Shown piece after piece: positions 47,687 through 49,627 of a stretch of 50,520 nucleotides of DNA. The position numbers and the translations under genes were made by a program. The DNA is from an uncultured bacterium. GTDB taxonomy: Bacteria; Pseudomonadota; Alphaproteobacteria; Rs-D84. Position 1 is the first letter of the stretch. Every line of letters starts with the position of its first letter. Where the stretch lies: assembly GCA_950096895.1 (NCBI GenBank), contig CATNBF010000006.1, forward strand, positions 1 to 50,520. Reading direction: 5' to 3'. A model generated the notes under the pieces. It did no database searches, was not told the origin of the DNA, and was given only the letters and a program-made list of their open reading frames with translations.

Positions 47687-47731
47687 TGGTAGCGGGAGAG
47701 GGACTTGAACCCCCGACACGCGGATTATGAT
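47685..47731 (-). repeat. Right 47-bp direct repeat (3' half of intact tRNA-Met)
   Basis: Copy identical to 46661-46707; here it is part of the complete tRNA gene. Confidence 0.8.
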
Positions 47732-47763
47732 TCCGCTGCTCTAACCAACTGAGCTATCCCGCC
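47687..47763 (-). tRNA. tRNA-Met (CAT), elongator type
   Basis: 77 nt with encoded CCA. Acceptor GGCGGGA/TCCCGCT is paired with G1-U72, so it lacks the unpaired first position of an initiator. Anticodon stem-loop GCGGA-ATCATAA-TCCGC (CAT); T-arm GGGGG-TTCAAGT-CCCTC. Closely resembles alphaproteobacterial elongator tRNA-Met; tRNA-Ile2 (k2C) is the alternative. It hosts the integration repeat. Confidence 0.93.
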
Positions 47764-47815: not shown

Positions 47816-47844
47816 TTGATTTTTTTCATGGCTCAATTTATTAT
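47816..47844 (+). promoter_or_regulatory. Promoter of the structured leader / GT8 gene
   Basis: TTGATT (47816-47821), 17 nt, TATTAT (47839-47844). Expected transcript start near 47851, about 209 nt before the GT8 start codon. Confidence 0.6.
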
Positions 47845-47850
47845 TCAAAG

Positions 47851-48038
47851 GACATCGGGGGTTCCGATGTTGGGATTCAACACCCATTGTATGCGCGTCT
47901 GTGCGGACGTAAAACGCTCCTGCATATCCATTATGGCAGGAGTGCGACTGCATATAGATAAAAGCATCGCGCTATTACGCATACAATAGTGTTGAAACTC
48001 CTGCCGTCTTTTTATAAAAGGACGGCTTCTCTTTATTC
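47851..48038 (+). ncRNA. Structured leader RNA, possible attenuator or riboswitch
   Basis: A 5' hairpin (ACATCGG/CCGATGT) is followed by an 18-bp near-perfect helix joining 47876-47895 to 47978-47996. Inside it are three hairpins: CGTC/GACG, CTCCTGC/GCAGGAG and GCGA..TGC/GCA.TCGC, giving a four-way junction. GGCAGGAGT (47935-47943) can instead pair perfectly with ACTCCTGCC (47997-48005), which would break both the second hairpin and the final GCCGTC/GACGGC hairpin (48003-48026) that precedes a T-rich tail. I do not recognise the class. A 40-codon ORF (ATG 47867 to TAG 47989) overlaps the structure and could be a leader peptide. Confidence 0.5.
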
Positions 48039-48059
48039 AACAATAAAAAGGTATGCAAC

Positions 48060-48980
48060 ATGTATAAATATTGGAAAATTCGCGAAATCATCGCCAAAAT
48101 GGCCGCATTGGTTGGCACAAACCGTAACAAACGACGCCAAATTCGTGATAAAATTCGCTTTGCTGGATTGATTCAAAGCACGGGTCATTATGACATTGCC
48201 CAGAAAAAGTACCCAAAGCCAATTGCAATATCATTGTGTTTCAATGGTGATGGATATAAATTAGCTGCTGTATCAATTCGATCCCTGGTTATGGCGGCGT
48301 CTGATCGGTGTGATTACCATATTTATTGCATTGTTGATTCCACAGTTCATAGCGAGCATCGCCGCATCCTGGGGCGCATGGTGGCCGATACCCAATCAAC
48401 AATTACATTTATTGACGCCAATCATGATTTTGACACCGCCAATCGACGCAGATGGCCGGTCGCGGTGTATTATCGCATGATGTTGCCAAAACTATTGGGG
48501 GACATCGACCAGATTATTTATGCAGATATCGATACTATATTTTGTCGTGATTTGATTGATTTGGCCTGTTTAGACATGGGGGATAATTTAGTGGCAGGCG
48601 TTGCCGATTATAATAACGGTTATATCAATTCGGGTTTTTTGGTTATGAATCTGACCCAAATGCGCAAAGAAAACATCTATGACACATGGGTTTGGGCCGC
48701 CCATAAAAAAGATTACAAAAATCCAGACCAAGATTTATTAAACTATACCACACGTGGGCGAAAAATATTTCTGCCGTTGCGGTACAACTTTCAATCTATG
48801 CTGGGGACACGTTTATTCAAGGTACATACCGATCGTGAGTTCTTTGATTTGCGTCACCATCTGGTTGTAATGCATTATTCAAATTGGATGAAACCATGGC
48901 ATCCCCACAACAGACGTCCTTTATATTCCAATTTATGGTGGGATGCGGCGCGGGAAACAGACCTACGATTCGATTTATGA
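48060..48980 (+). CDS. Family 8 glycosyltransferase
   Basis: 306 aa. GT-A fold retaining transferase of the LPS galactosyl/glucosyltransferase type: start IAISLCFNGDGYKLAAVSI, central IIYADIDTIFCRDL with the metal-binding DXD, then INSGFLVMNL and PDQDLLNY, and C-terminal VMHYSNWMKPWH. The basic N-terminal 55 residues may bind membrane or another subunit. It probably adds a hexose to surface polysaccharide from a UDP-sugar. Ribosome site AAAAAGG. The long structured leader upstream suggests conditional expression. Confidence 0.88.
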   Translation: MYKYWKIREIIAKMAALVGTNRNKRRQIRDKIRFAGLIQSTGHYDIAQKKYPKPIAISLCFNGDGYKLAAVSIRSLVMAASDRCDYHIYCIVDSTVHSEHRRILGRMVADTQSTITFIDANHDFDTANRRRWPVAVYYRMMLPKLLGDIDQIIYADIDTIFCRDLIDLACLDMGDNLVAGVADYNNGYINSGFLVMNLTQMRKENIYDTWVWAAHKKDYKNPDQDLLNYTTRGRKIFLPLRYNFQSMLGTRLFKVHTDREFFDLRHHLVVMHYSNWMKPWHPHNRRPLYSNLWWDAARETDLRFDL

Positions 48981-49024: not shown

Positions 49025-49053
49025 TTGAATGCATGTCTGAAATAATGTATATT
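49025..49053 (+). promoter_or_regulatory. Leaderless promoter of PagL-like gene
   Basis: TTGAAT (49025-49030), 17 nt, TATATT (49048-49053), then 7 nt to ATG 49061. Confidence 0.7.
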
Positions 49054-49060
49054 GGGCGGT

Positions 49061-49627
49061 ATGAAAAAATACTTGCTCTTTTTAATGGCCCTTGTTGTCC
49101 CGGGATTGGCACACGCGGCAGACGTATGGAATCCCTTTATGGGGTATAATGATCACCAAGTGGCCATTAATTTCGGTCAAGGTGTCGATAGCGGATTTTT
49201 AATTCCGCCACCATCGCGATTTGTGCCGTTTTATATGATGCCCCATATTCAATATTCGCAACCGACAACGTTTTTTAAGCTGCCGGCGCGTCAATCATTG
49301 AACTTTGGCGAAACGGTGGGCATGGGGAAAAAGTATGGTTGGAATTGGAAATCGTTTTCGATCCCAATGCTGTTTGCATCGGGGGATGTGGCATTGCTGT
49401 ATGGGAAAAACTGGTACTATGCCACGGGCGTCGGTGTCGGTTTCCAGGCCCAGCAAAATGATCGTTTGGGGGCGAAATTATTGTTCCAATTCAAGATTTC
49501 CGCCGGATACCGGTTTAACGATTGCTGGGGTGGGGAAATATATGTTCAACATTTTTCCAATGGCAACACGGCCGATGAAAATTATTCTTATGCCTTTTAT
49601 GGACTGGGGATGACATATAGTTTCTAA
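49061..49627 (+). CDS. Outer-membrane beta-barrel, PagL-like lipid A 3-O-deacylase family
   Basis: 188 aa from ATG 49061 (the track adds three residues). Signal peptide KYLLFLMALVVPGLAHAA, then a series of amphipathic strands (YYATGVGVGFQAQQND, LLFQFKISAGYRF) and the C-terminal FYGLGMTYSF with terminal Phe, typical of an outer-membrane barrel. IYVQHFSNG followed by an acidic residue resembles the His-Ser-Glu site of PagL, which removes the 3-O-acyl chain of lipid A. Enzyme activity is inferred from that motif only. It neighbours a GT8 gene, so both may tailor LPS. Confidence 0.65.
   Translation: MKKYLLFLMALVVPGLAHAADVWNPFMGYNDHQVAINFGQGVDSGFLIPPPSRFVPFYMMPHIQYSQPTTFFKLPARQSLNFGETVGMGKKYGWNWKSFSIPMLFASGDVALLYGKNWYYATGVGVGFQAQQNDRLGAKLLFQFKISAGYRFNDCWGGEIYVQHFSNGNTADENYSYAFYGLGMTYSF

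Follow-up and report, generated by a model that had tools for sequence, protein, structure and literature searches.

A recurrent leader RNA with two covarying, mutually exclusive folds, a likely transcription attenuator in Alphaproteobacteria

In a 50,520-nt stretch of DNA from an uncultured alphaproteobacterium of the order Rs-D84 (hereafter the window), a gene for a GT8-family glycosyltransferase is preceded by a highly structured leader. Is this leader a regulatory RNA, and if so, of which kind and for which genes? A sequence-only reading had described an 18-bp helix closing three hairpins, with one strand able to pair in two alternative ways. It had seen in this the logic of a riboswitch or attenuator, of a class it did not recognise. 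In folding predictions, the RNA from 47851 to 48038 reached -77.8 kcal/mol, compared with -46.8 ± 4.1 kcal/mol for dinucleotide-shuffled sequences (z = -7.6; 0 of 200 shuffles). The 18-bp helix and the three hairpins it encloses (Pa, Pb and Pc) were confirmed at the positions originally given; all features are listed in Table 1. The good promoter that had been claimed was confirmed as well, with -35 and -10 boxes in the window and a TATAAT-like box recurring in the family, whose upstream consensus also has a -35 region containing TTG. The transcription start is inferred, from sequence alone, to lie at about 47851, where the element begins. The claim that the leader lies 209 nt upstream of the start codon had to be corrected: the ATG is 209 nt away from the start of the element but 33 nt from the end of the terminator hairpin. 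A tRNA-Met (CAT) gene (47690-47763, minus strand) is divergent from the leader, an arrangement kept in the GT8 orthologue loci that were checked (L003-L007). Directly downstream of the GT8 gene, at 49052-49627, lies a gene for a PagL-like lipid A 3-O-deacylase, possibly a hint at envelope modification.

Table 1. Features of the leader and its downstream gene (window coordinates)
Feature	Position	Strand	Sequence or description	Basis or remark
-35 box	47816-47821	+	TTGATT	sequence; 17-nt spacer to -10 box
-10 box	47839-47844	+	TATTAT	sequence; 6 nt before first base of element
P0	47851-47871	+	5'-terminal hairpin GACATCGG/CCGATGTT, GNNUU-type pentaloop	alignment pairing, loop conservation
Y	47871-47886	+	local hairpin TGGG(ATTCAACA)CCCA	covariation; loop is most of the outer P1 5' strand
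P1 (fold T)	47876-47996	+	long-range helix, 18 bp; outer part TTCAACAC/GTGTTGAA (47876-47883 with 47989-47996), inner part ATTGTATGCG/CGCATACAAT (47886-47895 with 47978-47987)	covariation
Pa	47896-47909	+	hairpin CGTC/GACG, followed by conserved A-rich linker	99% paired
Pb (fold T)	47917-47942	+	hairpin CTCCTGC/GCAGGAG	CTCCTGC at 47917-47923
ALT (fold AT)	47935-48005	+	GGCAGGAGT (47935-47943) with ACTCCTGCC (47997-48005)	covariation
Pc	47943-47971	+	hairpin TGCGA/TCGCG, conserved loop	pairing and loop conservation
X	47972-47989	+	local hairpin CTATT(ACGCATAC)AATAG	covariation; loop is the inner P1 3' strand
Intrinsic terminator	48003-48034	+	GCCGTC..GACGGC (hairpin 48003-48026) followed by TTCTCTTT	T-rich tail
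Shine-Dalgarno-like	48048-48051	+	AAGG	sequence; 8 nt before ATG
Glycosyltransferase, GT8 family	48060-48980	+	306 aa	Pfam PF01501, 100 bits

The identification of the downstream gene as GT8 held, but the element is not GT8-specific; it belongs to an RNA family with hundreds of copies. Within the genus, BLAST searches recovered the GT8 leader from related genomes, and also diverged copies ahead of unrelated genes. A covariance model from homologous leaders, which the sequence-only reading had proposed as a check, was built from 10 homologues (R2), and the pairings were found to covary. R2 matched 146 of the 156 Candidatus Enterousia genomes, giving at least 1,210 matches summed over the genus, with scoring stopped at 18 per genome. 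The genome of the window contains four copies. In one single-contig chromosome of 1.0 Mb, which we take to be OX097180.1 of Candidatus Enterousia intestinigallinarum, 24 clear copies were counted with 96% of the sequence searched, hence at least 24. Ca. Enterousia belongs to the GTDB order Rs-D84, for whose members a symbiotic or parasitic life in animal guts has been inferred (PMC12306168). Throughout this order, matches were present in 178 of 201 genomes and in 18 of the 23 genera searched. A class-wide sample added 12 genomes from other alphaproteobacterial orders, mostly with a single copy, and there the layout is unchanged: hairpin, junction, ALT, terminator, Shine-Dalgarno-like sequence, gene.

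The family is not uniform. It includes copies of the CTCCAACC type, and Pa is missing from some copies (e.g. L069:7497). A diverged subclass (L075:11747-11939, L043:5949-6160 and L016:947-1158, the last on the minus strand) has an extended Pc loop (AUACAACAGG...AAA) and different Pb sequences, with a complementary strand and then a terminator still present; one such copy lies near the GT8 leader in genome G038. In the copies from other orders (L224-L236) the internal loop of Pc often carries an extra hairpin as a cap. Tandem arrays of two to five leaders about 240 nt apart occur in five genomes (L034, L027, L029, L035 and L037, in G131, G151, G044, G152 and G153), each leader having its promoter, terminator and Shine-Dalgarno-like sequence, mostly without a start codon. 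On three IMG/VR contigs (L221, L222, L223) a copy adjoins phage structural genes. A phage origin of the element was rejected: only these three contigs show the pattern, and they are likely to be host DNA at prophage edges. A pattern match in Paenibacillus (L126) was dismissed as a chance match, the structure being absent.

The helices of the family are maintained by compensatory change. In the family alignment P0 was 99.6-100% paired and every counted pair showed changes on both sides; in its loop the G was conserved in 97% and the two U in 96% and 93% of copies. P1 was 95-96% paired, and 17 of its 18 pairs had changed on both sides; its inner part occurred as 100 distinct sequences among 141 copies. 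Pb reached 89% (88.6%), with both-sided changes in four of seven pairs. Pc was 99.6% paired, all counted pairs having changed on both sides. Its loop reads GAAUAU-N3-GAAUAA in the family and CAUAUA..AAAAG in the window, and the core A and U positions are 91-97% conserved. In the absence of binding data, the Pc loop can only be inferred to be a candidate recognition site.

The central claim of the sequence-only reading was that GGCAGGAGT is complementary both to CTCCTGC inside the junction and to ACTCCTGCC downstream. This held, and both pairings are backed by covariation across copies. They define two folds. Fold T consists of the long-range helix P1 and hairpin Pb. In fold AT the 3' arm of Pb pairs downstream to form ALT, and the local hairpins X and Y re-use parts of the P1 strands. 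X and Y, both of which covary and overlap the strands of P1, had been missed before. X was 96% paired (variants CAATT/AATTG, CTATT/AATAG, CTGT/ACAG and GCA/TGC) and Y 87% (GGG/CCC, GAGG/CCTC, CAGG/CCTG, GTGGT/ACCAC and GCGAG/CTCGC). ALT was 98.4% paired with both-sided changes in five of nine pairs, in an alignment that had not been fitted to it, and is 9-13 bp long in 145 of 148 copies.

For comparison of the two folds, 148 distinct copies were parsed. The alignment (A7) was fitted to the P1/Pb fold only, and not to ALT, X or Y. Fold AT (Y, Pa, ALT, Pc and X, together with P0) nevertheless had 97.2% of its cells paired on A7, with 438 double-sided changes and a covariation of 0.548, compared with 0.169 after shuffling and at most 0.085 with slid partners. 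Fold T was 92.3% paired with a covariation of 0.612 (0.172 shuffled), a count that is biased towards the model. In a swap test, strands paired better with their own partner than with that of another copy: 0.995 versus 0.886 for ALT, 1.00 versus 0.70 for outer P1, 1.00 versus 0.46 for inner P1, 1.00 versus 0.71 for Y and 0.99 versus 0.59 for X. The own-partner values for P1, Y and X are inflated because the strands were chosen beforehand by their pairing, and anchoring ALT on GGAG/CTCC likewise biased its test towards pairing. Independent evidence for X, Y and ALT comes from the covariation count on A7 and not from the swap test. As the copies share ancestry, the counted changes are not independent events.

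One could object that ALT is merely a by-product of Pb, with which it shares a strand. The base following GGAG and the base preceding CTCC downstream formed G/C in 86, T/A in 47, T/G in 9 and A/T in 4 copies, with two mismatches, and Pb falls short of the post-GGAG base in 86 of 148 copies. Since this base covaries with the downstream strand, Pb often misses it and ALT is the better paired of the two helices, the objection does not hold. Outside Rs-D84 ALT is present with other sequences (GGCGAGAGG/CCTCTCGCC, GACTGGAAG/CTTCCAGTC). Pb is often longer in these copies, and in 10 of 13 the best-scoring Pb takes up 5 nt or more from the 5' strand of Pc, so that an intact Pc belongs with ALT there. 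The helices of these copies were chosen by a script, which may well have erred for L226 and L236.

The energy of the ALT-enforced fold exceeded that of the RNA as folded before transcription of the ALT strand by a median of 4.5 kcal/mol, and the ALT fold was the lower one in 38 of 148 copies; the terminator's own energy is omitted from this comparison. The predicted energies are nearly bistable. When ALT alone was enforced on the window RNA, Y, Pc and X were predicted to form unprompted. It remains possible that X and Y coexist with P1 as loop pseudoknots and are not a separate state, since few nucleotides are shared. The existence of the RNA family and of its two competing pairings is as secure as sequence comparison allows, on comparative and not on biochemical grounds.

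The position of the element relative to gene expression signals also recurs. In 118 of 148 copies P0 is preceded, at a distance of 5-7 nt, by a TATAAT-like box. Downstream, 146 of the 148 have a terminator-like hairpin and a T-rich tail, and so show the mark of an intrinsic-terminator attenuator, a GC-rich hairpin and U-tract between promoter and gene. An open reading frame of at least 60 aa begins a median of 31 nt past the terminator in 123 copies, and 113 of these 123 frames have a Shine-Dalgarno-like sequence. The second pairing had been said to disrupt the final GC hairpin. This held for part of the stem: ALT takes the foot of the terminator, in the window the nucleotides 48003-48005, and in 136 of 148 copies it shares 2-8 nt with the terminator stem. 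The proposed riboswitch or attenuator logic is thus supported by two exclusive folds that show compensatory changes and by a terminator placed where they switch, with a promoter upstream and a start codon downstream. Two of the features expected of a riboswitch, a structured 5'-UTR RNA supported by covariation and exclusive folds linked to a terminator, are present on comparative evidence only; direct binding of a small molecule or ion would be the third.

The genes behind the leaders do not indicate a single pathway. Their products span many unrelated groups, mainly exported proteins (Cys-rich ones and others), small HTH proteins and glycosyltransferases (of GT8 or GT2-like type), with GmrSD-type restriction proteins as well. 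By a crude signal-peptide rule, 57 of 76 downstream proteins of at least 95 aa looked exported, compared with 31% of control ORFs. Tandem leaders stand ahead of small HTH genes in several genomes; the protein encoded behind the arrays is HTH-like, 62-71 aa long and without a Pfam match. The copies in other orders (L224-L236) precede genes for lipoproteins and for outer-membrane-like and pilin-like proteins.

The most plausible interpretation, to which we assign a probability of roughly 0.75 in the absence of expression, probing or termination data, is that the leader is a 5'-UTR transcription attenuator, either riboswitch-like or triggered by a protein. Transcription would begin at the P0 hairpin. 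By default the nascent RNA would adopt fold T, with P1 formed around Pa, Pb and Pc and the downstream pyrimidine strand left free, and the terminator would halt RNA polymerase about 30 nt ahead of the start codon. On binding of a trigger, be it a metabolite, a signalling nucleotide, an ion or a protein, the 3' arm of Pb would swap to the downstream strand, with the conserved loop of Pc as the likeliest binding site, and X and Y would take over part of the strands that form P1. ALT would then occupy the foot of the terminator stem, and hence polymerase is proposed to read through. The family, both covarying sets of pairings, the promoter, the terminator and the position of the gene are established; the action in cis on termination, the trigger favouring read-through and Pc as its binding site are inferred, with no transcript, probing or binding data. 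That binding at Pc favours read-through is a guess, resting on the few distant copies in which an intact Pc goes with fold AT. Given the length of P1 and the usually greater predicted stability of fold T, the trigger or the folding kinetics must make up the difference. Read-through may also be incomplete, as ALT removes just part of the terminator stem. An on/off switch is nonetheless probable, since two exclusive folds are placed between a promoter and mainly surface-protein genes.

Alternatively, the element could be a stand-alone, trans-acting small RNA of about 175 nt, acting for instance as the sponge of an RNA-binding protein, with its proximity to genes being secondary. Its own promoter and terminator speak for this, as do the tandem copies in L034, L027 and L029, which are spaced about 240 nt from each other between promoter repeats and have a Shine-Dalgarno-like sequence without a start codon behind it. 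However, an ORF of at least 60 aa follows the terminator in 123 of 148 copies, unrelated genes share the leader, and a stand-alone RNA would have no need for an overlap between ALT and the terminator foot; we regard this alternative as unlikely. Harder to judge is a variant of the attenuator reading in which the trigger is a conserved RNA-binding protein that holds the Pc or P0 loop. The short, strongly conserved loops (the GNNUU pentaloop of P0 and the loop of Pc) would suit a protein, and one RNA before many unrelated genes is what a global regulator would show. Yet no candidate was found: the small HTH protein, the only one tested, is absent from seven of eight RNA-bearing genomes, namely that of the window and six others, and was rejected as a universal partner. 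We lean against a protein trigger.

Attenuation by ribosome stalling on a translated leader peptide, in the frame 47867-47989 or in a GGAG-AUG frame in Pc, has in its favour a 40-aa open frame in the window and GGAG followed by AUG or GUG in some GT8 copies. The sequence-only reading had itself named conservation of the frame 47867-47989 in place of the helices as the outcome that would refute it. The homologues keep the helices and not the frame, and the reading survives. Among eight GT8 orthologues the start codon is lost in seven and several have stops or shifts, so a conserved translated short ORF is not present and the peptide-frame explanation was rejected. Other copies keep the RNA helices though nearly every paired base has changed. 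A leader peptide is thus highly improbable. A dispersed MITE-like repeat without function of its own could account for the many copies per genome and the tandem arrays, but paired positions differ nearly everywhere while the folds, the promoter, the terminator and the distance to the start codon are kept. The compensatory changes in both folds contradict this explanation and practically rule it out. The attenuator reading is therefore preferred.

Does the attenuator belong to a known class? At the gathering thresholds of Rfam 15, the window, 13 genus loci and 13 loci from other orders gave tRNAs only, and a permissive scan gave no credible match; the statement that the class is unrecognised thus held. 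The 6S RNA model RF00013 had no match in the genome of the window, where the control set gave matches in five genomes; no absence of 6S RNA can be concluded from this null result. In the most relevant paper on Enterousia and Rs-D84 (PMC12306168), a term search turned up neither RNA nor riboswitches. Literature searches on leaders or riboswitch copies gave no results, though an unnamed prediction in automated lists, e.g. the supplements of PMC8040213, is possible. The family thus appears to be undescribed.

With transcription-terminating riboswitches the family shares a junction RNA at the 5' end, strand exchange between two folds, an intrinsic terminator and a gene directly downstream. Unlike these, it has no known ligand, no Rfam match and no gene set from a single pathway, at least 24 copies in a 1-Mb genome, and two extra local hairpins overlapping the long-range helix. 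Class I c-di-GMP (GEMM) riboswitches occur many times per genome, often before genes for surface or exported proteins. The family resembles them in copy number and gene context, whereas sequence and secondary structure differ and no Rfam model matches. The leaders recognised by LicT/BglG (RAT), ANTAR proteins, TRAP and PyrR place one element, overlapping a terminator, before several genes. This reuse is shared by our family, but the structures differ and no cognate protein has been identified for it. T-box leaders exchange terminator and antiterminator in the 5'-UTR and can be tandem, as here; our family has no T-box match in Rfam and no amino-acid or tRNA-synthetase genes, or other tRNA-related genes, among those downstream.

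A bolder reading, to which we give clearly less than an even chance, is that a single signal controls genes for surface, exported and regulatory proteins as one dispersed regulon through a new class of sensor RNA, present in tens of copies per genome and partly in serial tandem. It includes a double strand exchange, P1/Pb versus X/Y/ALT, in gut-symbiotic alphaproteobacteria with reduced genomes; to our knowledge no described riboswitch has such an exchange. If this were true, RNA attenuation would be a main regulatory layer of the reduced genomes that carry the family, with a new signalling compound, or a cue derived from the host or a partner, as the possible ligand. Few orphan riboswitch candidates are backed by comparison to this extent, and one found tens of times in a 1-Mb genome is rarer still. 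As there are two covarying folds, both structure and mechanism can be tested in vitro without culturing the organisms. For the uncultured order Rs-D84 the family provides a ready list of co-regulated genes together with a testable switch, and the identity of the trigger would reveal what these cells sense.
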